Source: a bacterium
GTDB taxonomy: Bacteria > Myxococcota_A > UBA9160 > UBA4427
DNA: 64,000 nt
Direction: 5' to 3'
NCBI GenBank assembly: GCA_024742285.1
Contig: JANSYR010000013.1
Location: 124,001-188,000, forward strand
Part shown: one piece after another, positions 5,307-30,846 of the stretch
Numbering within the stretch: the stretch's first letter is position 1
How the letters are laid out: every line of letters starts with the position of its first letter
The notes under the pieces: model-generated
Database searches by the model: none
What the model was told of the DNA's origin: nothing
What the model saw: the letters and a program-made list of their open reading frames with translations, nothing else
Program-made: the position numbers and the translations under genes

Positions 5307-6689
5307 ATGCTCTACCGCTACAGCGAAGTCTTTCGGACGCTGATCGCCGTCGCGGATGGCGTGCTCGTGGCGTCCGCCTGGCTCGCGGCCTACTGGCTTC
5401 GCTTCGAGACCGGGATGCCGGTGCCCCTGGGTGTCCCCGAGATCGACGGTTACGTCTGGGCCCTCGCGGTCATCGTCCCGCTCTACTTCGTCCTGTTCCA
5501 GACCCACGGTCTCTACGAGGCGCGTCGGATGGATTCGCGGCTCGGCGAGACGTCGGCGGTCCTGCGCGCGACGTTCATGGGGCTGCTGCTGCTGACGGCG
5601 GCTTCGTTCTTCGCGCGGAACTATTCGTACTCCCGCGCGGTGCTCGGGCTCTTCGCGGTGCTCGCGCCGACCTTCGTGATCACGCTGCGCTCGTCGATCC
5701 GCTTCGTGCTCCGGCGGCTGCGCGAGCGGGGCTTGAATCTCCGCTTCGTCGTCGTCGTCGGAACCGGACCGCTCGCCGAGACGATCGTCGCGCGGATCGC
5801 GGGGCGACCGGATGCCGGTCTTCGCGTGCTCGGTGTCGTGTCGGAAGGGGGCCACGGCGGCACGGTGGCGGGGGCGCCGGTGATCGGTAGCGTGGCTGCT
5901 CTCAAGTCGATCCTGCACGGCCAGCGCGTCGATCAGCTGATCATCGCGCTCGGCCGAAACGAGTCCGAGACCTTCGAGAAGGTGACCGCCGAGCTCGCCG
6001 ACGAGGTCGTGAACGTGAAGGTCGTTCCGGATCTGCTCCATGGCTTCAGCCTTCGCAGCACGGTCGAGAGCCTGGACGGCATCCCCGTGATCGGCCTCCA
6101 GGAGACGGCGCTCTCCGGCTGGGGAGTGGTGGCCAAGCGGACCTTCGACGTGGCGGCGAGCACGACGCTCCTCGCGCTGGGGTCTCCGGTCCTCGCTGCG
6201 ATCGCCGCCGGCGTGTGGGCGAGCTCCGGGCGCCCGATCTTCTTCTCGCAGCAGCGCGTGGGGCACGACGGGCGCGTGTTCGAGATGTGGAAGTTCCGTT
6301 CGATGCGGCGGGGCGCGGACGCGGAGGGGCCGGCCTGGACGACCCGGGACGATCCGCGCCGCACGCGATTCGGTCGCTGGCTGCGGCGACACAGCCTGGA
6401 CGAGCTGCCGCAGCTCTGGAACGTGCTCCGCGGCGACATGAGCCTGGTGGGACCGCGGCCGGAGCAGCCCGCCTACATCGAAGAATTCCGCCGTGAGGTC
6501 CCCGGCTACATGCTTCGCCACAAGGTGCGCGCGGGCATGACGGGCTGGGCGCAGGTCCACGGCTGGCGGGGGGACACGTCGATCCACGAGCGCGTCGAGC
6601 ACGACCTCTACTACGTCCAGAAATGGTCGTTCTGGCTCGACCTGCGGATCCTCGCGATGACCCTGGTCCTGCGCGAACGCGGCGAATAG
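5307..6689 (+). CDS. Undecaprenyl-phosphate sugar phosphotransferase (WcaJ/WbaP type)
   Basis: 460 aa, polyisoprenyl-phosphate hexose-1-phosphate transferase that starts a repeat unit of exopolysaccharide or O-antigen. It has four N-terminal membrane helices, a Rossmann-like CoA-binding/flavodoxin-like middle domain with VVVGTGPLAE, a re-entrant hydrophobic helix, and the catalytic bacterial sugar transferase domain: FEMWKFRSM, a TRFGRWLRRHSLDELPQLWN segment, and MSLVGPRPE near the C-terminus. GGGGGGA lies 8-13 nt before the chosen ATG. It is convergent with the DegT/GT4 pair downstream, and together they suggest a surface-polysaccharide locus. Confidence 0.9.
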   Translation: MLYRYSEVFRTLIAVADGVLVASAWLAAYWLRFETGMPVPLGVPEIDGYVWALAVIVPLYFVLFQTHGLYEARRMDSRLGETSAVLRATFMGLLLLTAASFFARNYSYSRAVLGLFAVLAPTFVITLRSSIRFVLRRLRERGLNLRFVVVVGTGPLAETIVARIAGRPDAGLRVLGVVSEGGHGGTVAGAPVIGSVAALKSILHGQRVDQLIIALGRNESETFEKVTAELADEVVNVKVVPDLLHGFSLRSTVESLDGIPVIGLQETALSGWGVVAKRTFDVAASTTLLALGSPVLAAIAAGVWASSGRPIFFSQQRVGHDGRVFEMWKFRSMRRGADAEGPAWTTRDDPRRTRFGRWLRRHSLDELPQLWNVLRGDMSLVGPRPEQPAYIEEFRREVPGYMLRHKVRAGMTGWAQVHGWRGDTSIHERVEHDLYYVQKWSFWLDLRILAMTLVLRERGE

Positions 6690-12823: not shown

Positions 12824-13641
12824 TCGGGCCAGTCCGGCCAGTCGCGCGCGACGCGGCCCTTCCACTCGGGTGCGCGGCGCTGGACGTGGGAGACCGGGCC
12901 CTCGATCGCGTCCGGGTGGGGCATCACGACCTTGTGCAGCTCGGTCTCCTTGCGCTCGACCTGGGCCGCGGTCAGCTCCGTCGATTCCCAGAGCAGCTTC
13001 TTCGAGACCGCGATCGAGAGCGGCGCGGCATGGATCGCGGTGTCCCGCGCGATCGCGAGGGCCGTGTCGAGGACGTCGGCCGACGGCACGACCTCGTTCG
13101 CGACGCCGAGACGTTCGATCTCTTCGCCCGTGAACGTCTTGCCCGTCAGCATGATCTCGGCCGCCTTCGCGAGGCCGACCATGCGCACCATCGTCCAGTG
13201 CGAGTAGGCGTCGCCCATCACGCCGCGCCGGACCTGCACGATCCCGTACTTGCCTTCACGGGCGAAGATGCGGAGGTCGCACTGCATCGCGAGGGTCATC
13301 CCGAGCCCGATCGCGTGCCCGTTCACCGCCGCCACGACCAGCTTCCGGATCGAGAACGCCGGGACCGCGCAGCCGGCGGCGCTGAAGTCGTCGAAGCCGC
13401 CGCTCCCGGACACGTCGAAGGTCTTCTCGGCATCGCTCATGTCCGCGCCCGCGCAGAACGCGCGCCCCGCGCCGGTCACGACCACGGCACGGATGTCGTC
13501 GTCCTCGTCGCAGCGCCGATAGGCGTCGGCCAGTCCCTCGAGCAGCTCGCCCGAGCACGCGTTCATCACGTTCGGACGGTTCAGCGTGATCAACGCCACC
13601 CCGTCCGAATCCACCTCGAAGAGAAGGTCCGCTTCACTCAT
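12814..13641 (-). CDS. Enoyl-CoA hydratase/isomerase (crotonase) family protein
   Basis: 275 aa, crotonase fold. Conserved segments: ITLNRPNVMNA, VVTGAGRAFCAGAD (oxyanion hole), and a VNGHAIGLGMTLAMQCDLRI-type helix and strand. At the usual catalytic stretch the sequence reads YGIVQVRRGV-GDAYSHW, where the first hydratase glutamate (PEI) appears to be glutamine, so it may be an isomerase or another crotonase rather than a classical hydratase. The terminal region is PEWKGRVARDWPDW. Short-distance TATAGT 8 nt before the ATG suggests a leaderless transcript. Beta-oxidation role is likely but unproven. Confidence 0.85.
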   Translation of the reverse strand: MSEADLLFEVDSDGVALITLNRPNVMNACSGELLEGLADAYRRCDEDDDIRAVVVTGAGRAFCAGADMSDAEKTFDVSGSGGFDDFSAAGCAVPAFSIRKLVVAAVNGHAIGLGMTLAMQCDLRIFAREGKYGIVQVRRGVMGDAYSHWTMVRMVGLAKAAEIMLTGKTFTGEEIERLGVANEVVPSADVLDTALAIARDTAIHAAPLSIAVSKKLLWESTELTAAQVERKETELHKVVMPHPDAIEGPVSHVQRRAPEWKGRVARDWPDWPDAD

Positions 13642-21907: not shown

Positions 21908-22024
21908 TTGCGCTGAGGGCTCTGGTCGGGGTCGGCCCCACCGAAGCGCTCGAGGAATCGACGGGGATCGTCCGGGAGGGCGGTCCCCGTTTGCGTTTCG
22001 GTGTCGGATGGCGAGAATCGGGTC

Positions 22025-23137
22025 ATGCGCTTCCTCGGACTTCGACCGATCTTCATGGCGGCCGCGCTCGCGGCGGCGGCTTGTGCCGGGTCCGAAGGGC
22101 CCGTTCGACTCACGCATTCGAGCGAGACACCCTGGGTCGAGCTGCGCAGCGCCCGCGGCTATAACGGGTCGGCCGCGGTGAAGGCCATGCCGACCGAGGT
22201 CGAGCGGATCGACCGGGTGCTGCGCAACCGCGCCGTCTATCGGGAGCCGGGCTTCGGGTTCGGGCACCTGATGCTGGGGTCGGGCGCGCTCTATCCCTAT
22301 CACGCGCACGCGGCGCCCGAGGCCTACCACGTGCTGTCGGGCGTCGCCGAGTGGAGCGTGGACGGCGAGACGCGACGCGTCGGGCCCGGCACGACGATCT
22401 ATCACGCGCCCTACGCGGACCATCGCTGGGTGACGGTCTCCGAAGAGCCGCTGCGCGTGGTCTGGGCGCAGTGGGTCCCGGACGGGGATCGCAGCGGCCT
22501 GATCGCGGACGCGGTTCGCCGGCGCGGAGGATCGACGACCGGCAATTTCTTCGAGGGCGAGCGTCGTTCGGTGTCGCTCCTGCCGACGAAGCTCGCGGCG
22601 CCCGTCGCCGACGTCCCGCCGGGCACCGTGCTCGACGAGATGCGTCGCAAGCGCCTCGAGGCGCGGCACGTGGAGCCGTCCCGGCCGGCGGTCCGCATCT
22701 TCGTCGACAGCTTCGGGATCCCCTGGAACACCGAGCAGGACGGCGTGCGCTGGCGGGCGGTCTTCGGGACGCCGGACCTCGAGTGGGGACACGTCGAGAT
22801 CCGCGGTCCGGGGCAGCGTGAGCTTCCGGCCTCCTCCGCGCCGTGGCTGCTGCACGTGCTCTCGGGCGAGGCGCGGGTGCGGATCGCCGACGGAGGCGAT
22901 CTCCGCGTCTCGGCGGGCTCGTCCGTCGTCGTGCGTCCCGGCGAGCCGCTCGAAGTCGAGTTCGAGAGCGAGGACCGTGACGCCTGGGACCAGGTCCCGC
23001 CGCTGCGCGCGCTCTTCACCCGTTGGGCTCCGGATGGCGACATGAGCTACTGGGCGCGCGACTACTTCCTCGTCGAGCCGATGCCCGAGCCCCCCGCCGA
23101 GGCGACACTCCCGAAGGACGTGTCGTTCTTTCCCTAG
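22025..23137 (+). CDS. Bicupin lipoprotein with DMSP-lyase-like N-terminal cupin
   Basis: 370 aa. N-terminal signal ending in LAAAACAGS (lipobox-like). The first cupin (about residues 70-165) has YPYHAHAAPEAYHVLSGVAEW, then DGETRRVGPGTTIYHAPYADHRW and a W-x-Q-W segment. The H-x-H-x4-E...H metal set and layout resemble the DddL/DddQ/DddW dimethylsulfoniopropionate lyase cupin family. The second cupin (LHVLSGEARVRI...) has lost the histidines and is probably structural. Lyase activity is only a suggestion; a sugar- or nutrient-binding cupin is equally possible. ATG 22025 starts the signal peptide directly. Confidence 0.65.
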   Translation: MRFLGLRPIFMAAALAAAACAGSEGPVRLTHSSETPWVELRSARGYNGSAAVKAMPTEVERIDRVLRNRAVYREPGFGFGHLMLGSGALYPYHAHAAPEAYHVLSGVAEWSVDGETRRVGPGTTIYHAPYADHRWVTVSEEPLRVVWAQWVPDGDRSGLIADAVRRRGGSTTGNFFEGERRSVSLLPTKLAAPVADVPPGTVLDEMRRKRLEARHVEPSRPAVRIFVDSFGIPWNTEQDGVRWRAVFGTPDLEWGHVEIRGPGQRELPASSAPWLLHVLSGEARVRIADGGDLRVSAGSSVVVRPGEPLEVEFESEDRDAWDQVPPLRALFTRWAPDGDMSYWARDYFLVEPMPEPPAEATLPKDVSFFP

Positions 23138-23204
23138 GCGCGCGGCAGGGTCGCTTCGCCCGCGCGCGGGATCGCGCGGGGAACGCGCGGTTCGAGGCGC
23201 GTCG

Positions 23205-23232
23205 TTGACACGCCCTGGTGTCGCTGTACTCT
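23205..23232 (+). promoter_or_regulatory. Sigma70-type promoter of the WS/DGAT operon
   Basis: Perfect -35 TTGACA, 16-bp spacer, -10 TACTCT. The expected start is near 23239, the first base of the palindromic operator. The 5' leader to the first start codon is about 225 nt. Confidence 0.7.
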
Positions 23233-23238
23233 GGGAAG

Positions 23239-23266
23239 GCGCTACTGATAGATCTATCAGTAGCGC
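23239..23266. promoter_or_regulatory. 28-bp perfect palindrome, probable TetR operator
   Basis: Half site GCGCTACTGATAGA followed by its exact reverse complement, with no spacer and no mismatch. It starts 6 bp after the -10 box, so a bound dimer would block initiation. The operon it precedes encodes a TetR regulator as its second gene, the natural candidate ligand. As RNA it could also form a 5' hairpin. Confidence 0.75.
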
Positions 23267-23463
23267 TGGGTGGTCCGATTCTCCCGACTCGGATCGCCTG
23301 CCTGCCTCGAGACGGTCGGTCGGCCGTCACCAACAGGTCTTCACGCCCATCGACCCGAAGCCGCGCTGCGGCAAGGCGGTGAGGTCCACGTGGACGGCCT
23401 TCGGATTGCGAGCGACGCCCGAGCGGGCGCGAGCGCGCGATCCGGTACCAGGGGAGACGCGCG

Positions 23464-24897
23464 ATGAGCGACGTGAAGACGAACGGGATCGAGTTCGACG
23501 AGTTCATGAGTGAAGCCGACACGGTCATGTGGGTCGGCGAGCGGGACCCGCGCCTGCGTTCGACGATGGTGAGCGTGTGGGTGCTCGATCGAATGCCTGC
23601 GATCGAGGACTTCGAAGCGATGCTCGCGGATTCGGTCGAACAGATTCCGCGCCTGCGTCAGCGCGTCGTTCGCGACGCCTACGAGATCGCGCCGCCGCGA
23701 TGGGAGTTCGATCCCAACTTCGACCCCGGCTTCCACTTCCGGAGGTCCCATCTCGGCGGGGAAGGCGAGCTCCGCGACCTGCTCGACCTCGCCGAGCCGA
23801 TCGCGATGCAGGCCTTCGACAAGGATCGTCCGCTCTGGGAGTTCTACCTCGTCGACGGGCTCAGCGGCGGCCGCGCCGGCGTGATCATGAAGCTCCACCA
23901 CGCCGTGTCGGACGGCGTCGGTCTCGTGAACATGACGAAGAGCATGATCGAGCGGACTCCGGACGAGGGCCGAAAGCGGCGGACCGGGCGACGCCTGGCC
24001 GACCTCGAGGTGCCCGAGCCGGCGACCCGGCGGGAGCTCGTTCGCGGGGCGATCAAGCACCGCGTGCGCCGGGCGACGGAGAACGCGGGGCGGGTGCTTC
24101 GCGGTGCAGCGGATCTGGCGGCGGATCTCGTGACGAAGCCGTCGGAGACGGTCGGTCGCGCGAGCGACATGGTCGGTTCGATCGGACGGCTGCTCGAGCC
24201 GATCACGGAGCCGAAGTCGCCGGTCATGCGCGATCGCGGCATGGCGCTCTCGCTCAGCGGCTTCACGGCCTCGCTCGCCGGCATGAAGAAGACCGGTCGC
24301 GCGATGGGCGGGTCGGTCAATGACGTCTTCGTGACGGCCGTGGCGGGTGGCCTCCGGCGCTATCACGAGCACTTCGGCGCGAGCGTCGACGAGCTCAACA
24401 TGATGATGCCGATCAACATGCGAGCGAAGGACGAGAGCGGTCGGAAGGCCGGCAATCAGTTCGTGCCGTCGCGCTTTCTCGTTCCCGTCGGGATCGAGGA
24501 TCCCCTCGACCGGATGGAAGCGATCCAGGACCGAATTCGGGAGCAGCGGGGCGAGTCGGCCCTCGGCTACGTCGAAGACATCATGACCGTGATGAACCAG
24601 CTCCCCGACGCCGTCATGCAGGGCGTGATGGAGGGGATGACGACCGCCGTCGATTTCGTGACGAGCAACGTTCCGGGCCCCCGGTCCGCGACCTACACCG
24701 CCGGCGCGAAGATCGAGCAGATGTTCCCCTTCGGCCCTCCCGCCGGTGCGGCCGTCAACATCACCCTGTTCAGCTACGACGGCACCTGCCACGTCGGCAT
24801 CAACGCCGACCGCGCGGCAGTCGAATCCCCCGAGCTCCTGCGCGAGTGCATCGAGAAGAGCATGGTGGAGCTGCTGTCGAACTACCACGAGGAGTAG
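23464..24897 (+). CDS. Wax ester synthase/diacylglycerol acyltransferase (WS/DGAT), first copy
   Basis: 477 aa, bifunctional acyltransferase making wax esters or triacylglycerol from acyl-CoA. The catalytic HHxxxDG motif reads HHAVSDG at about residue 144. Other family blocks: DRPLWEFYLVDGL before it, SVNDVFVTAVAGGLRRY, MMPINMR, and SNVPGPRSATYTAGAKIEQMFPFGP in the C-terminal half. Typical length. The first gene of a four-gene operon under the palindromic operator. It differs clearly from the second WS/DGAT, so the two may prefer different alcohol or diacylglycerol acceptors. Confidence 0.95.
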   Translation: MSDVKTNGIEFDEFMSEADTVMWVGERDPRLRSTMVSVWVLDRMPAIEDFEAMLADSVEQIPRLRQRVVRDAYEIAPPRWEFDPNFDPGFHFRRSHLGGEGELRDLLDLAEPIAMQAFDKDRPLWEFYLVDGLSGGRAGVIMKLHHAVSDGVGLVNMTKSMIERTPDEGRKRRTGRRLADLEVPEPATRRELVRGAIKHRVRRATENAGRVLRGAADLAADLVTKPSETVGRASDMVGSIGRLLEPITEPKSPVMRDRGMALSLSGFTASLAGMKKTGRAMGGSVNDVFVTAVAGGLRRYHEHFGASVDELNMMMPINMRAKDESGRKAGNQFVPSRFLVPVGIEDPLDRMEAIQDRIREQRGESALGYVEDIMTVMNQLPDAVMQGVMEGMTTAVDFVTSNVPGPRSATYTAGAKIEQMFPFGPPAGAAVNITLFSYDGTCHVGINADRAAVESPELLRECIEKSMVELLSNYHEE

Positions 24898-24902
24898 CCG
24901 CC

Positions 24903-25550
24903 TTGGCAGCGCGTCGTACGAAGAGGAAGAAGGCGGCGTCTCCGCGGACACGGATGTCGCCGGATCAGCGTCGCGCGCAGCTGCTGCGCTGCGCGCTCGA
25001 GGTGTTCGCGAACAAGGGCATCCGGCGCGCCGGCCACGCCGAGGTGGCGAAGCTGGCGGGCTGCGCCGTGTCGACCGTGTTCCTCTACTTCGACACGCGG
25101 GAGGCGCTCGTCGACGCCGTGCTCGACGAGGTCGAGACCTTCTACACCGACCTCGCCGGCCGCGCGCACGCGTCCGCGCGGCCCGCGACGGAGGTCCTGC
25201 TCGATCACGGGCGCCGCTTCCGCGCCTCGATCGAGTCGCATCCCGAGCACGCGCTCGTCCTGCTGAACTGGGCGGCGAATGCGCGCAGCCGGGTCTGGCC
25301 CCGCTACATCGCGCTGATCGAAGACATGGTGGAGAACCACCGCAAGACGATCGAGCGCGGGATCGCCGAGGGCGACCTCGACCCCGCCGTCGATGCCGAG
25401 TCCGCAGCGCGCATCATCATCGGGTACGCGCACATGACGATCCAATTGCGCCTCGCGGACTTCGAGCCGGAGCGCGCAGAGCAGATTTCCCAGAGGATGG
25501 TCTCCGCCGTCCTGTCTCCGCCCAACCCCCTGAAGGACGCCGCCGCCTGA
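24903..25550 (+). CDS. TetR-family regulator within the WS/DGAT operon
   Basis: 215 aa from TTG 24903, or 198 aa from ATG 24954. TTG is preferred because GAGGAG lies 9 nt before it, at the end of the preceding gene; it adds a basic tail (ARRTKRKK). The N-terminal HTH reads RRAQLLRCALEVFANKGIRRAGHAEVAKLAGCAVSTVFLYFDTREALVDAV, here given as a region, typical of TetR. The ligand domain is unassigned; acyl-CoA would suit the context. Likely represses its own operon through the palindrome at 23239-23266. Confidence 0.88.
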   Translation: MAARRTKRKKAASPRTRMSPDQRRAQLLRCALEVFANKGIRRAGHAEVAKLAGCAVSTVFLYFDTREALVDAVLDEVETFYTDLAGRAHASARPATEVLLDHGRRFRASIESHPEHALVLLNWAANARSRVWPRYIALIEDMVENHRKTIERGIAEGDLDPAVDAESAARIIIGYAHMTIQLRLADFEPERAEQISQRMVSAVLSPPNPLKDAAA

Positions 25551-25577
25551 CGCGCGTCGTCGAGGAGTCCGCCATCC

Positions 25578-27053
25578 ATGGATCAGCTCACGGGTCTCGA
25601 CAACAGCTTCCTGCTGATGGAGACCGGCGCGGCCCTCGGCCATGTCGGCTCCTACGCGACGTTCGATGCGTCCGATCTCGCCCAGGGCGAGTTCTACGCC
25701 GCGTTCCGCAAGACGCTCGAGGAGCGCCTCCACCTGCTCCCCCCGTATCGCCGCAAGCTCGCGGAGGTCCCGCTCGGGCTCGATCGGCCCTACTGGGTGG
25801 AGGACGAGGACTTCGACCTCGACTTCCACGTCCGACACATCGCCGTCCCGGCGCCGGGTGATCGCGAGCAGCAGGCGGCGCTCGTGGCGCGCCTCCACAG
25901 TCGTCCCCTCGACCGCGCCCGACCGCTCTGGGAGGTCTACGTGATCGAAGGGCTCGCCGACGGCCGGGTGGGGTTCTACTCGAAGGTCCACCACGCCACC
26001 ATCGATGGGGTCTCGGGTTCGCAGATGATGGAGAAGCTCCTCGACCGCGATCCGAACGGGGATGTCGTCGAGCCGCCGAAGACGCCCTGGGTGGCGGATG
26101 CGACCCCGAGCCAGGGAGAGATGCTCATGCGGGGCGCCGCCGGCGCCGCGACCCATCCGGGCCGCATGGCGCGGACCCTCTACCGGACGGCCCGCGGCGT
26201 GTGGGAGAGCAACGAGCTGCTCGCCTCCGCGGCGCAAGGGCTCGGCCTCGATCGGCTACCGCTGACCCGGTCGATTCTCAAGCGGCGTGGGGCCGAGATC
26301 GACGCCGATCGGATCCCGCAGGCGCCGGCACCGCGGGCCCCCTGGAACCTCTCGATCACGCCGCACCGACGCGTGGCCTGCTTCTCGCAGCCCCTCGCCG
26401 ACTACAAGCACGTGAAGAAGGCCTTCGGGACGACGCTGAACGACGTCGTCATGGCCGTGACCGGCGGCGCCCTGCGGCGCTACCTCGAGTCGCACAGCTC
26501 GCTCCCGGAGGATCCGTTGAAGGCGATGGTGCCGGTCTCGGTGCGCAGCGAGTCGGAGGCCGAGGTCTACTCGAACCGGGTGGCCAGCGTGATCTCCGAG
26601 CTCGCGACCGACGAGAAGGACCCGGTCGAACGGCTGATGCGGATTCATCGCGCGATGCAGGCGGCGAAGCGCATGCACGCGGCGACGCCGGCGACGTTGC
26701 TCCAGGACTGGACGGAGTTCGCGATGCCTGCGCTCCTCGGGCAGGCCCAGCGGATCGCCGCTCGGACCAAGATCCTGGATCGGCTGAACCCGCCCTTCAA
26801 CGTGATCATCTCGAACGTGCCCGGGCCGCGAGAGCCGCTCTATCTGGCAGGCGCCGAGATGAAGGACTACTTCCCGGTCTCCGCGATCACCGACGGTCAG
26901 GGTCTCAACGTCACGGTGATCAGCTACCTCGATCATCTCGACTTCGGGCTGATCGCCTGTCGCGAGCTCGTCCCCGATCTCCACGACCTGGAGTCGGACT
27001 TCGACGAGTCTCTCGCCGAGCTCGTGCGACTCGCGGGCGAGGCCCGGAACTGA
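25578..27053 (+). CDS. Wax ester synthase/diacylglycerol acyltransferase (WS/DGAT), second copy
   Basis: 491 aa. The N-terminal LTGLDNSFLLMET matches the usual WS/DGAT start better than the first copy. The catalytic motif is HHATIDG at about residue 138. Further blocks: DRARPLWEVYVIEGL, TLNDVVMAVTGGALRRYL, MVPVSVR, ISNVPGPREPLYLAGA. GAGGAG about 15 nt before the ATG acts as ribosome site. It lies 27 bp after the TetR gene and before the lysine-rich gene. Product: storage wax ester or triacylglycerol at the membrane and lipid-droplet surface. Confidence 0.95.
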   Translation: MDQLTGLDNSFLLMETGAALGHVGSYATFDASDLAQGEFYAAFRKTLEERLHLLPPYRRKLAEVPLGLDRPYWVEDEDFDLDFHVRHIAVPAPGDREQQAALVARLHSRPLDRARPLWEVYVIEGLADGRVGFYSKVHHATIDGVSGSQMMEKLLDRDPNGDVVEPPKTPWVADATPSQGEMLMRGAAGAATHPGRMARTLYRTARGVWESNELLASAAQGLGLDRLPLTRSILKRRGAEIDADRIPQAPAPRAPWNLSITPHRRVACFSQPLADYKHVKKAFGTTLNDVVMAVTGGALRRYLESHSSLPEDPLKAMVPVSVRSESEAEVYSNRVASVISELATDEKDPVERLMRIHRAMQAAKRMHAATPATLLQDWTEFAMPALLGQAQRIAARTKILDRLNPPFNVIISNVPGPREPLYLAGAEMKDYFPVSAITDGQGLNVTVISYLDHLDFGLIACRELVPDLHDLESDFDESLAELVRLAGEARN

Positions 27054-27090
27054 CATCTTCTCGACAACGCCAACTGGAGAGGAACCCACC

Positions 27091-27471
27091 ATGGCCGTAC
27101 GCAAGAAGGCCGCCCGCAAGGCGGCGAAGAAGAAGACCACCCGACGTTCGCGCATCGGCGCCGACGCGATCGACGACGCCCTCTCCGGCCTCGAAAAGGA
27201 GATTCCGCGCTTGATCCGGAGGCTCCGGAAGAATCTCCGGGACCTCGAGAAGCAGGCGGACCGCGCGCGCAAGGACGGCGAGAAGCGCTGGCGCGACGCC
27301 GAGAAGCAGTTCCGATCGGATGCCGACGAGCTCCGGAAGCGGATCGAGGAGCTCGTGGGCGTCTCGAGTGGTACGAAGCGCAAGGGGGCCGCGAAGAAGA
27401 AGAGCGCCAAGCGGAAGGCAGCGAAGAAGTCGACGCGGAAGGCGCCGAAGAAGCGCGCGTCCGGCCGCTAG
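27091..27471 (+). CDS. Small lysine/alanine-rich protein with histone-H1-like tails
   Basis: 126 aa in three parts. Residues 1-22 and about 92-126 are Lys/Ala/Arg-rich (AKKKTTRR, AAKKKSAKRKAAKK), like histone H1 and bacterial HctB/AlgP-type DNA-binding tails. Residues 25-90 are a charged amphipathic helix or coiled coil (LEKEIPRLIRRLRKNLRDLEKQ, quoted here as two halves: LEKEIPRLIRR and LRKNLRDLEKQ) with a phasin-like character. GGAGAGGAA precedes the ATG. As the last gene of a WS/DGAT operon it may coat lipid inclusions or tie them to DNA, comparable to MLDS of Rhodococcus. That is inference; a general nucleoid protein is the alternative. Confidence 0.75.
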   Translation: MAVRKKAARKAAKKKTTRRSRIGADAIDDALSGLEKEIPRLIRRLRKNLRDLEKQADRARKDGEKRWRDAEKQFRSDADELRKRIEELVGVSSGTKRKGAAKKKSAKRKAAKKSTRKAPKKRASGR

Positions 27472-27490: not shown

Positions 27491-29791
27491 CTAGACCATC
27501 CGGATCCGGGGCTCGCGGGCGTGGGCGAGGAGCGCGTCTCGCTCGTCGCCATCGGCCGGGTGGACGCCGTACCCGAACGCGAGGCCGATGCGGACCGGCT
27601 GGTTCAGGTTCTCGTCCTTCGACACGACGTCGGCCACCGCGCGAGCGAGCTCGAAGACGCGCTCGCCGGGGGTGCGCCCCGGTTCCGGCATCAGGACCGC
27701 GAACTCGTCGCGATCGATTCGAGCCAGCACGTCGAACTCGCGCAGGTGGGTCTGGAGCGCTTCGGCGAGCAGGCGGGCCACGTCGGACGCGTGGTCCGCG
27801 CCGGCCTCCGCGGTCAGCTCTGCCCGGTTCTCGAGCTTGCAGACGCAGAGGGCGAGGGCGTCCTCACGACCCGCCGCGCGCGCGATCTCCTCGCCGAGGC
27901 GCTTGTCGAGGTAGGAGACGTTCGGGAGCCCCGTCTCGTCGTCGAAGTTCCGGTTCTGTCGGTTCTCGCGGTGGCTCATCGCGTGGTCGAGCGCGCGCTC
28001 GACGTAGGACACGAAGCGACCGAAGACCTGCAGATCCTCGTCGTCGAAGCGGCTCGCGAAGAAGCGGTCGAGGGCGACCTTGTCGTAGATGGCGATCGAG
28101 CCGATGACCTCGCCGTTGCGCTTGAGGGGCGCCGAGAGGACGGAGCGCATCTCGTCCACGTGCTCCGAGAGGTTCGGGTCGAGGCTCGCGTCCTGGGTCA
28201 GATGAGCCGTCCGGCGGCGGATGGCGTCGACGGTGACGGCCTTGTCGAGGCGAAAGAGCGCCTCCTGCGCCGGTCCGTCGGCGGCTCCGAAGTACGAGCG
28301 GATCGAATAGCGTCGGGTCGTGGGGTCCTGAAGGCGCAGGATCGCGTGATCGGCCTCGAGGATCATCGACGCCGACGAGGTGGCGAGCCTCGCGACTTCG
28401 TTGGGCTCGGTGCACGAGAGCATGCGGATCGAGGTCTCGTTGATCGCGTTCACGCGCTCGGCCTGGCTGGCCATGCGCGCTTCCTTGTCGCTGGCCGCGA
28501 TCGTGTCGGCGGCTGCGGCGGCGATCTCCTGCCAGCTCTCGAGGTTCCGGTGGCTCGGGCTGCTGCCGGCTCCCGAGGCGGCGGGCTTCGCGCCCATCTG
28601 CAGGGAGAGCAGACCGACGAGGTGGTTCCCGGCGAGGAGGGGCAGGGCGGCGTAGCCGATCCGCCCGTCTTCGTGCCGGAGAACGGCGGCGCGCTGGTTG
28701 CGGAGGGCTTCGCCGTCGACGCCGATGCCCGCCTCGAGGCGGTACTCGCCGCCGAAGCCGCCTCCGGTGAGCGAGGTGGCGACCATGCGGAGTCCGCCGT
28801 CGGCCTCGCGGAGGTAGAGATGGGCGATCCCGCCCGCGGCGCGCTCTGCGACGAAGCGGCAGAACTCCTCGAGACGGTCGTTCAGGATCGCGGGGCCGCG
28901 CAGGATGCGCTGGACCTCGCGGACCGCGTCGTAGCGCGCGGCCTGGGTCCGCAGGCTCTCGTGCTCCTGGGCGCGGGCGATGATCTGCGCGTCGAGGCTC
29001 GCGAGCTGCTCCATGAACTGGAGATCTTCGTCGCCGAAGACGTCGGCACGATGGGAGTGGTGGACGTTGAGGACGCCGAGGACCTTCCCGTGGTGGATCA
29101 GCGGGACGCAGAGCGCGGACTCGACGTCGACGCGCTCGCGCACGAGGTCGTAGCTCGAGGGCTCCGCCTGGCCGCGGATGTGGATGGGCCGCCCTTCGGC
29201 GGCGACGCGACCCGAGATGCCCTGACCGAGCGCGACGCGGATCTTGGGCCAGAGCTCGGGCTCGACACCCTTGGCGACGCGGATGCGGAGCACCCCGGCT
29301 TCGGGATCGAGCAGCATCAGACTGCCGCCTTCCGCCCCGGTCACGCCGACGGCGATTTCGAGCATCCGCTCGAAGAGCTCGTCGGCTTCGACGGTCAGGT
29401 CGACGCTCTCGACCACTTCGTGGAGGGCCTGGAGCAGCTCCGCCTTGCGGTCGCGCGGCGCGACGCCGTAGCCCCAGAGGAGACGGGCGGTGAGCGGCGT
29501 GACCACCTGGAGGGCGGTACGCGGGCCGGCGGGGACGTGCGCTGCGAAGTCTCCGCTCGAATCGATGATCGCGTCGAAGTCCTGCTCGGCGAAGAACGCC
29601 GTGGCGTCGTCGACGAGGAGCGGAGCCACCGCGTGGGCGAGGGCGGTCCCGATCCCGCGCGCGCGCTCGAGGGCGTCGGCCGCGTTCGGATCGTAGATCC
29701 GCGAGACCTCGACTCCGGGATTGCCCGACAGGAGGCGCAGGAGTCGCAGGGACTCCTCGCTGGCGCCCCAGATGCCGAGCCGGCGCCGCAT
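27491..29791 (-). CDS. Multi-GAF sensor with Rossmann-like N-terminus and degenerate GGDEF-like C-terminus
   Basis: 766 aa. Residues 1-110 resemble a nucleotide-binding Rossmann fold (LGIWGASEESLRLLRLL, IIDSSGDFA). Two or three GAF domains follow, the first with GGSLMLLDPEAGVLRIRVAKG and LGQGISGRVAAEGRPIHI. The C-terminus has the GGDEF-domain order (DDETGLPNVSYLDKRL ... LARIDRDEFAVL), but the two glycines of GGDEF are D-R, so cyclase activity is doubtful. The ATG shares one base with the stop of the GTPase gene (TGATG). A cytoplasmic small-molecule or redox sensor acting with the GTPase is plausible. Confidence 0.75.
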   Translation of the reverse strand: MRRRLGIWGASEESLRLLRLLSGNPGVEVSRIYDPNAADALERARGIGTALAHAVAPLLVDDATAFFAEQDFDAIIDSSGDFAAHVPAGPRTALQVVTPLTARLLWGYGVAPRDRKAELLQALHEVVESVDLTVEADELFERMLEIAVGVTGAEGGSLMLLDPEAGVLRIRVAKGVEPELWPKIRVALGQGISGRVAAEGRPIHIRGQAEPSSYDLVRERVDVESALCVPLIHHGKVLGVLNVHHSHRADVFGDEDLQFMEQLASLDAQIIARAQEHESLRTQAARYDAVREVQRILRGPAILNDRLEEFCRFVAERAAGGIAHLYLREADGGLRMVATSLTGGGFGGEYRLEAGIGVDGEALRNQRAAVLRHEDGRIGYAALPLLAGNHLVGLLSLQMGAKPAASGAGSSPSHRNLESWQEIAAAAADTIAASDKEARMASQAERVNAINETSIRMLSCTEPNEVARLATSSASMILEADHAILRLQDPTTRRYSIRSYFGAADGPAQEALFRLDKAVTVDAIRRRTAHLTQDASLDPNLSEHVDEMRSVLSAPLKRNGEVIGSIAIYDKVALDRFFASRFDDEDLQVFGRFVSYVERALDHAMSHRENRQNRNFDDETGLPNVSYLDKRLGEEIARAAGREDALALCVCKLENRAELTAEAGADHASDVARLLAEALQTHLREFDVLARIDRDEFAVLMPEPGRTPGERVFELARAVADVVSKDENLNQPVRIGLAFGYGVHPADGDERDALLAHAREPRIRMV

Positions 29792-30846
29792 CAGTCGGTG
29801 CCGTCCTGGCTCGCCAGCGCGTCGAGTCGCAACGAGAGAACGACGCTTCGCGAAGTCCCGTCCTCGTCGCCGAGCACGAGCGGCAGGCGAACGCCGCCGT
29901 CGGCCTCGACCGTGGCCTGGCCGACCGACACGACGCGCAGAGCGCCTTCGGTGGGCTTGGAGGCCGACGCATCCTCGGCCCATTCGGCCTGCCCCCCGTC
30001 GAGGTCGAGCTCGACGGCGGCCAGCGTCTGGAAGTTCTGGTCCTCACCTTCCGCGAGGATCGCGCTCTCGAGCAGCTCGGCCGTCGAAGTCGCGTTCGGA
30101 TCGTCGTCGAGCGCCACGGCCTCGAGGGTGGGTTCGAGCTCGAGCGCTTCGACCTCGGAGGATTCGTCGATCGCGATCTCTTCGATCTGGGGCAGGGCCT
30201 CGGGCTCGGGGGGCGCGGCCGGCCTTTCCGGGGCCGCGGCGCCCTGCGCCGCCTCGGCCGCCACCTGCGGATCGATTTCGCCGCTGCTGCCGCGGCGCGC
30301 GCGCACGACATGCTTCGAGATGGTGGTCAGCGTCGGGAGGATGCCGTGGCCGGTCGTCGCGATGGTCTCGAAGACGGCGGCCTGATCGAGTCCGATCTGG
30401 CGATGGAGGTCTTCGATCGCGAAGGGATCGGCGACGTCGCGCTTGTTGTATTGGAGCACCAGGGGGAACGCGTCGAGTCGCCGGCCGTAGGCGGCGAGGG
30501 ACTTCTTCAGCTCCTCGAGGGCCGGGCCGTTCTCCCGGATCTTCTCGGGCGAACAGTCGAGGACGAGCACGATCCCGTCGACCTCGTCGAGGAGCTGCTT
30601 GCGGGTCATCGCCTGGTCCGGCGCGCCCGGGACGGCGACCAGCTCGATCTGGGTGCCGACGCCACCGACCTCGCCGAGGGTGATCGGCAAGGCTTCGTAT
30701 TGGACGGTGGGGTCGAGGCGGGTGGGCTCGCGCCGCAGCTCGCCGCGAAGGTCCTCGCGGAGCTTCGCGTGGATCGTCTCGAGGGTCGTCGTCTTGCCCG
30801 AACCTTCGATGCCCCAGAGCAGGATGCGTGCGTTGACTTCGGACAT
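29791..30846 (-). CDS. MglA/Arf-like small GTPase with long C-terminal extension
   Basis: 351 aa. The first ~190 residues form a Ras/MglA-type GTPase: P-loop GIEGSGKTT at 12-20, a switch II region VPGAPDQ in place of DxxG (MglA proteins have a similar divergent motif), and NKRD for guanine specificity. The rest is an acidic, proline/alanine-rich linker ending in a beta-rich segment (LPLVLGDEDGTSRSVVLSL). MglA-type GTPases set polarity or control motility. It lies 2 nt after the HEAT-like gene and overlaps the GAF gene, so the three form one operon. Confidence 0.82.
   Translation of the reverse strand: MSEVNARILLWGIEGSGKTTTLETIHAKLREDLRGELRREPTRLDPTVQYEALPITLGEVGGVGTQIELVAVPGAPDQAMTRKQLLDEVDGIVLVLDCSPEKIRENGPALEELKKSLAAYGRRLDAFPLVLQYNKRDVADPFAIEDLHRQIGLDQAAVFETIATTGHGILPTLTTISKHVVRARRGSSGEIDPQVAAEAAQGAAAPERPAAPPEPEALPQIEEIAIDESSEVEALELEPTLEAVALDDDPNATSTAELLESAILAEGEDQNFQTLAAVELDLDGGQAEWAEDASASKPTEGALRVVSVGQATVEADGGVRLPLVLGDEDGTSRSVVLSLRLDALASQDGTD

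Follow-up and report, generated by a model that had tools for sequence, protein, structure and literature searches.

A small protein with histone H1-like tails is encoded beside wax-ester/diacylglycerol acyltransferases in uncultured Myxococcota and may tether lipid droplets to DNA

The window analyzed here, a stretch of 64,000 nucleotides from a genome of uncultured Myxococcota (G000), contains an open reading frame for a small protein (termed SP), which starts with ATG behind a ribosome-binding site graded as good and clear by sequence reading (Table 1). SP follows two genes for wax-ester/diacylglycerol acyltransferases (WS/DGATs), WSD1 and WSD2, which share 26% identity and lie on either side of a TetR-type regulator. 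The initial annotation had placed SP in a lipid-storage operon, and this gene setting held up: WSD1 and WSD2 match the family model TIGR02946 at 332 and 488 bits, respectively (cut-off, 310 bits). A two-cupin gene, a putative member of the operon, opens the segment, while the convergent GAF-GGDEF gene begins a flank that is syntenic in relatives of the same genus.

Table 1 Features of the SP locus and of related loci.
Feature	Position	Strand	Basis
SP, small protein, group A member, 126 aa	27091-27471	+	translation
Ribosome-binding site of SP, GGAGAGGAA	27076-27084	+	sequence reading; 6 bases ahead of ATG
N-terminal basic tail of SP, residues 1-25, Lys/Arg/Ala-rich	27091-27165	+	composition, net charge
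Conserved helical core of SP, residues 26-90, amphipathic, near charge-neutral	27166-27360	+	family alignment, AlphaFold2 helix, periodicity
C-terminal H1/HctB-like tail of SP, residues 91-126, net +17	27361-27468	+	composition
WSD2, WS/DGAT directly upstream of SP, 37-base gap	25578-27053	+	PF03007 1e-73, PF06974 2.6e-39, TIGR02946 488 bits
TetR-type regulator (alternative start 24846)	24954-25550	+	PF00440 1.2e-8; start from simple gene calling
WSD1, second WS/DGAT	23464-24897	+	PF03007 4.2e-45, TIGR02946 332 bits
Two-cupin protein, opens variable segment, putative operon member	22001-23137	+	PF07883, two stretches
GAF-GGDEF gene, convergent, begins conserved flank (probable start near 29791)	27491-29983	-	PF13185, PF00990
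Variable segment between conserved flanks	window 22001-27471; L193 near 6150-6350; L194 near 12940-13380		
~207-aa protein downstream of SP relatives	L034:6097-6720, L040:6961-7578, L041:3416-4072, L042:640-1263, L043:6147-6770		
L147, phasin-like protein	G000:C9:138294-138596	-	PF05597 29.9 bits

SP had been described as Lys/Ala-rich ends around a charged amphipathic core, a layout that is borne out by composition, AlphaFold2 and hydrophobic periodicity. Residues 1-22 have a net charge of +11, consist of 50% Lys/Arg and lack Leu; Lys makes up 33% of the C-terminal tail, and both tails are almost devoid of Pro. Residues 23-90 carry a net charge of only +2 (19 Lys/Arg versus 17 Asp/Glu). Within a window of ~69% G+C, SP contains 19.8% Lys, compared to a median of 2.6% for the genes called nearby, and up to 12 Lys fall within 36 consecutive residues, where the next best of the 19 surrounding called genes reaches six. 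AlphaFold2, employed on 15 family members, predicts that SP is helical from residue 4 to 12 and from 16 to 89, the block-mean pLDDT being 87-96 over residues 31-90. The outer tails score 52-56 (residues 1-20, 55-56) and are thus predicted to be largely disordered.

Along residues 25-90, hydrophobicity recurs every 3.62 residues, with a strength that none of 2000 shuffles equaled, and each of the 30 rows of the alignments (A1, A4) of the two related groups described below has its repeat at 3.60-3.66 residues. Since the power at 3.5 remained below that of the best period in 30 of 30 rows, we rejected a canonical heptad coiled coil in one continuous register; a length of 65-80 residues does not separate periods of 3.60 and 3.67, and coils that are stuttered or built on 11 residues remain compatible with the data. 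Placed on an 11/3 repeat, seven gap-free rows of SP's own group show 107 of 125 large hydrophobic residues within 60° of the stripe center, 57 of 85 acidic residues at 60-120° and 91 of 131 basic residues at 120-180°. The helix would thus present a greasy face opposite a basic face, which suits a rod between a hydrophobic partner and a polyanion. The class A pattern of lipid-surface helices differs from that of SP, where acidic residues flank the stripe and basic residues lie opposite. Because this pattern is not typical of phospholipid-seeking helices, we consider it equally plausible that the helix oligomerizes, docks on an enzyme or binds a surface directly, and droplet binding by SP is accordingly something that we infer.

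A search of 97 relatives returned matches in 22 genomes. When 79 genomes of the order were scanned with a profile of the core, the hits fell into a strong set (group A) and a weaker one (group B). Group A comprises 18 copies, SP included, in 17 of the 79 genomes of this order of uncultured Myxococcota, and the family carries no name. Among 377 genomes sampled from the phylum, 25 contained a match, all of them from SP's own order. SP alone as query found no match in 84,980 species genomes; a pattern-limited scan of the same 84,980 species with a conserved subset yielded seven loci, all in metagenome-assembled genomes titled Myxococcota, Myxococcales or Deltaproteobacteria. Group B consists of 49 loci (L045, L049, L090-L103, L114-L146) in 40 genomes, counted without G060, G054 and G052, whose matches are group A copies, and combines the same kind of Lys/Ala tails with a longer helical core. 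Both groups are related as judged from profile comparison (probability 98.8%, E 5.9e-17), which also revealed a 22-residue insertion in group B; being two 11-residue units long, it would keep the hydrophobic stripe in register. In a tree of 48 of the 67 loci, from which cores shorter than 55 residues (L038 among them) and the near-copy L035 were omitted, a branch with full support separates group A (16 rows) from the rest. Tail lengths in 15 proteins range from 15 to 56 residues at the N-terminus and from 17 to 70 at the C-terminus; the tails are basic in all 15, and the total net charge amounts to +24 to +50. L047 and L048 were dropped as SP homologs because they are phasin-like (27.0 bits for L047 against the cut-off of 28.8), and L052 was dropped as a chance match. 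L035 and L050, both from G054, are nearly identical SP copies on two contigs with no WS/DGAT in the sequence read, and represent either a recent duplication or an assembly artefact. The neighbors of group B are varied and include FAD oxidases, an FtsX/ABC transporter and PPDK-like genes; its proteins may tether other cargoes or simply be nucleoid proteins.

The surroundings of the 18 group A copies and the 49 group B loci were compared, with WS/DGATs placed by a custom profile of such enzymes. A WS/DGAT was the next neighbor on the same strand for 10 of the 18 group A copies (the window, L034, L037, L038, L039, L040, L041, L043, L044 and L046) and for none of the 49 group B loci. The possibility that homologs never lie near lipid genes, which the initial annotation had named as refuting its idea, thus does not hold for group A. 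Three further copies (L032, L036, L050) lack a WS/DGAT although 1 kb or more of sequence flanks them on either side; for the other five (L031, L033, L035, L042, L051), a contig end is no more than 300 bases away and the other side shows no WS/DGAT. Group B was rejected as lipid-linked, though a complete or partial WS/DGAT lies within 1.5 kb of three of its loci (L096, L100, L129) on the opposite strand. Fisher's exact test gave 1.8e-7 for 10/18 versus 0/49 and 4.1e-8 when restricted to loci flanked by 1 kb or more on each side (9/12 versus 0/42), values to be read with the relatedness of the genomes in mind, which are not independent, although the positives span five genera. The chance of a same-strand adjacent WS/DGAT, calculated from WS/DGAT counts and an assumed ~950 genes per Mb, is ~0.2% per locus. 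Group B serves as an internal control: its tails are of the same kind, yet it has no WS/DGAT placed in this way, so the tails alone cannot account for the linkage. From the contrast between the groups, a role of SP in neutral-lipid storage is well supported, and we hold it with high confidence.

The pairing itself is not uniform. SP and WS/DGAT are spaced by +2, -4, -4 and -1 bases in L034, L040, L041 and L043, respectively, where translational coupling is likely. In gene order, the loci divide into those with the WS/DGAT ahead of SP, the codons of the two genes touching or set apart by a gap, and those with it behind SP, and the adjacent enzymes fall into at least three subfamilies that are 30-45% identical to each other. 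Two other genes recur in these surroundings. A beta-lactamase-family serine hydrolase (cluster C4) is found near the SP-WS/DGAT pair in L033, L034, L040, L041 and L043, and could be a lipase or esterase of the lipid store. Directly downstream of SP, five loci encode a nameless, mostly beta-sheet protein of ~207 residues, for which we obtained no Pfam match (L041 copy), no PDB match by sequence and no Foldseek match at E <= 0.001. Its model (pLDDT 68) gave LptG, LptF and BPI as top rows in VIA-align at Z 6.2-6.6, which is below the telling level, and possibly adopts a lipid-binding fold.

Our comparison of the locus covers four genomes of the same genus (G001, G002, G005, G006); matches in G003, G007 and G008 were partial, and G004 had none. 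In all four, the gene order of the flanks is kept and the segment with WSD1, WSD2 and SP is missing, so that neither SP nor an intact WSD2 occurs at any of the four loci. In G005, which keeps no SP there, a relic of 171 bases of WSD2 (74% identity) persists next to the GGDEF gene, and G002 retains the cupin gene in an internally shortened form. This fits a joint loss of SP and enzyme at this locus, the alternative being a gain in the lineage of the window. G006 encodes a protein 63-64% identical to WSD2 elsewhere, with no SP beside it. In the tree, SP is closest to L031 from G008, a genome of the same genus; there the genes on the 5' side are divergent and unrelated, and the contig ends on the 3' side.

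WS/DGATs (PF03007) are present in 72 of the 79 genomes of the order, with nine copies in G000, and the N-terminal domain of PHA synthase (PhaC_N, PF07167) was found in two of the 79 and not in G000; these counts point to lipid rather than PHA as the stored material. Group A is found in none of the seven genomes without WS/DGAT, group B in three of them. Group A hosts contain on average 10.2 WS/DGATs (n=17) compared to 5.2 in the others (n=62), and group B hosts 8.6 compared to 3.9 in non-hosts. As group B hosts are enriched despite being unlinked, this co-occurrence is weak evidence and may mainly reflect lineage and genome size. Moreover, six of nine genomes of the genus contain WS/DGATs and no SP, showing that SP is dispensable for having the pathway.

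Phasins were considered in the same genomes. At E <= 0.001, the phasin model PF05597 (Pfam gathering cut-off, 28.8 bits) has hits in 65 of the 79 genomes, with 29 above the cut-off; among the hits are proteins whose N-terminus is PhaR-like and, below the cut-off, a few group A copies. G000 itself encodes L147, a better phasin candidate than SP. Phasin-like proteins occur in most genomes of the order, and in G000 with no detected PHA synthase, and phasins may serve neutral lipid here. The PhaR-like proteins L106-L108, L151 and L153 start with KRYANRKLYNT, presumably the DNA-binding domain of the PHA repressor PhaR, and likewise occur in genomes with no detected PHA synthase.

SP reached no curated family model in Pfam or NCBIfam, and searching the PDB by sequence gave weak matches alone (best E 0.0032). 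Against PF05597, SP had no match at E <= 1, while the group A stretches of G027 and G022 scored 21.8 and 21.1 bits, below the cut-off. Among 15 family members, phasin models matched four at E <= 0.05 (best 2.6e-4, Pfam), PHA_granule_1 two (best 0.0026, NCBIfam), apolipoprotein one (3.5e-3, Pfam), HC2 (PF07382) two (best 6.5e-7), an H1-like model two (best 2.4e-4, NCBIfam) and the AlgP N-terminal model (NF038178) one, weakly (0.025). Long charged helices with Lys/Ala tails draw such matches, which we therefore treat as leads only. The proposed likeness to HctB shows at the level of the family, in the two members with HC2 matches, and not in SP itself, which had no HC2 match at E <= 0.05. HctB/HC2 and H1-like proteins share the Lys/Ala/Arg composition of the SP tails; to our knowledge, a conserved helical core and linkage to WS/DGAT are no features of HctB. 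Aligned by hhalign to the phasin-like proteins of the order (A7), group A reached a probability of 27% over 12 columns and group B one of 2.7%. We thus rejected SP as an ordinary phasin, as it stays below the PF05597/TIGR01837 cut-off, is unrelated by hhalign and belongs to a genome without PhaC_N.

How might SP act in lipid storage? Encoded beside a WS/DGAT on the same strand, with stop and start codons that touch or overlap in several relatives, SP would be made together with the lipid-making enzyme. The predicted layout is one long amphipathic helix flanked by two disordered basic tails. The hydrophobic stripe would face the surface of a nascent wax-ester or triacylglycerol (TAG) droplet, other SP helices or the WS/DGAT, and the tails would bind DNA independently of sequence, so that droplets would be distributed over the nucleoid and passed on to both daughter cells; perhaps SP would also shield DNA in starvation, as reported for MLDS. 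Droplet and DNA binding are here deduced from architecture and precedents, and our confidence differs between the parts. It appears probable that in the living cell the tails bind DNA, or else some other polyanion, and we somewhat favor a direct association of SP with droplets. The complete arrangement, in which SP tethers droplet to nucleoid and is made together with the acyltransferase, is our tentative proposal. It draws on the linkage to WS/DGAT, the repeated pairing, the joint absence with WSD2, the conserved helix with disordered tails, on the weak matches within the family, in which HC2 and H1-like models reflect the type of the tails and phasin and apolipoprotein models that of the core, and on precedents of the same design (MLDS, PhaF, PhaM/PhaH/AlgP, HBHA). 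Against it stand L032, L036 and L050, which have no WS/DGAT, the unrelated 5' genes of the closest relative L031, the charge pattern of the helix, the genomes of the genus with WS/DGATs and no SP, and the better phasin candidate of G000, L147, which is unrelated to SP by profile comparison.

Other explanations share parts of this evidence. SP might be a partner of the enzyme, with its helix docking on the WS/DGAT to activate it, recruit it or set the start of a droplet, and its tails placing the enzyme at the nucleoid. The touching or overlapping genes in four loci and the pairing with several WS/DGAT subfamilies agree with this, as does PhaM, which complexes with PhaC and activates it according to a 2025 review of bacterial organelle positioning (PMC13052382). 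However, a single docking surface would have to be general to serve such divergent subfamilies, three group A copies stand alone, and most WS/DGATs have no SP, G000 encoding nine of them and one SP; we consider this explanation rather unlikely. SP might also coat droplets without binding DNA, as an HBHA- or phasin-like surfactant that rests its tails on anionic phospholipid and controls droplet size. The lysine-rich tail of HBHA is described as required for phosphoinositide binding and inclusion formation (PMC6176652), and the weak matches to phasin (4/15 members) and apolipoprotein (1/15) point the same way. H1/HctB-like tails at both ends with the net charges found here, however, exceed the needs of a coat, the charge pattern of SP is not class A, and HBHA itself is described as binding DNA through that tail (PMC10665949), which leaves a mere coat improbable.

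A plain nucleoid protein, i.e. an H1-like DNA compactor of the order that has no lipid function and merely lies near WS/DGATs in group A, would account for the 49 unlinked group B loci with the same core and tails, for the three genomes with group B and no WS/DGAT, and for the HC2 and H1-like matches. It does not explain the 10/18 versus 0/49 contrast at a chance of ~0.2% per locus, and five genera with differing gene orders and partners do not amount to one inherited neighborhood, so that we rate it a shade less probable still. An organizer of polyphosphate granules, co-expressed with lipid storage in a joint starvation response, finds a model in AlgP, which has a helical N-terminal domain and an H1-like tail and is described as spacing such granules, the tail being required (PMC9239181), and in the single weak AlgP match at E 0.025. 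The linkage is to lipid synthesis, however, and the scanned neighbors contained no polyphosphate gene, making this very improbable.

Returning to the tether reading, little is known about how neutral-lipid droplets are positioned and inherited in Gram-negative bacteria, and the 2025 review contains neither 'lipid droplet' nor 'triacylglycerol' (PMC13052382). A 2023 survey of WS/DGAT clusters gives wax ester or TAG synthesis as not reported in Deltaproteobacteria, could not analyze synteny there, and lists a single putative phasin that shares a scaffold with a WS/DGAT, in Pseudomonadota (PMC10351704); TAG lipid bodies have nevertheless been described in Myxococcus xanthus. Searching openly licensed literature, we found no SP-like gene paired with a WS/DGAT among the papers listed, judged by titles and abstract openings. 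SP beside WS/DGAT offers a direct handle on droplet positioning. If the tether reading is true, neutral lipid would be the third storage material for which Gram-negatives use the H1-tail tether design, suggesting repeated invention of the same solution.

The known systems show how far the parallel reaches. The 2025 review names PhaM, PhaF, PhaH and AlgP as tethers, the first three acting on PHA granules and AlgP on polyphosphate granules (PMC13052382). PhaF combines an amphipathic helix with a leucine zipper and binds DNA through its C-terminal domain (PMC3574117). It resembles SP in that an H1-like basic tail follows the long amphipathic helix, and it tethers granule to nucleoid; unlike SP, it serves PHA granules, contains a leucine zipper and has a C-terminal tail only. 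PhaM, compared here by description, links granule and nucleoid through a histone-like domain and works with the granule's own synthase, paralleling the role proposed for SP, but serves PHB and PhaC. AlgP shares the helical N-terminal domain and H1-like tail, but is 352 residues long with KPAA repeats, against 126 residues and nearly Pro-free tails in SP. A genetic link to the granule-making enzyme, as expected of such tethers, is present in group A (10 of 18).

Closer in cargo are the actinobacterial proteins: MLDS of Rhodococcus links inclusions to genomic DNA (PMC5504291) and is a homolog of mycobacterial HBHA, which is involved in lipid inclusions (PMC6176652) and reported to be nucleoid-associated, binding DNA via its AKKA tail (PMC10665949). 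MLDS, TadA and HBHA share with SP a helical rod and a Lys/Ala-rich C-terminal tail, and they are located on TAG inclusions or involved with them. HBHA has a single C-terminal tail and a short hydrophobic N-terminal stretch, whereas SP is tailed at either end and lacks a hydrophobic N-terminus; MLDS shares an operon with its regulator, whereas SP adjoins a WS/DGAT. SP is set apart from HBHA and MLDS by their descriptions, the NCBIfam scans having returned no HBHA-named model. Thus, the job proposed for SP in the initial annotation, a droplet-to-DNA tether in a Gram-negative lineage, gains from the lipid link of group A, while its kind is not new given PhaF, PhaM, PhaH and AlgP. A bolder and more doubtful extension is that a separate, undescribed double-tailed family ties wax-ester/TAG droplets to the Gram-negative nucleoid, re-paired with different WS/DGATs, within a larger family of groups A and B whose H1-tailed helical rods might supply tethers for several cargoes. 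Taken together, the best reading by analogy is that SP would be the neutral-lipid counterpart of PhaF/PhaM and of MLDS/HBHA, a new sequence family with a known tether design.
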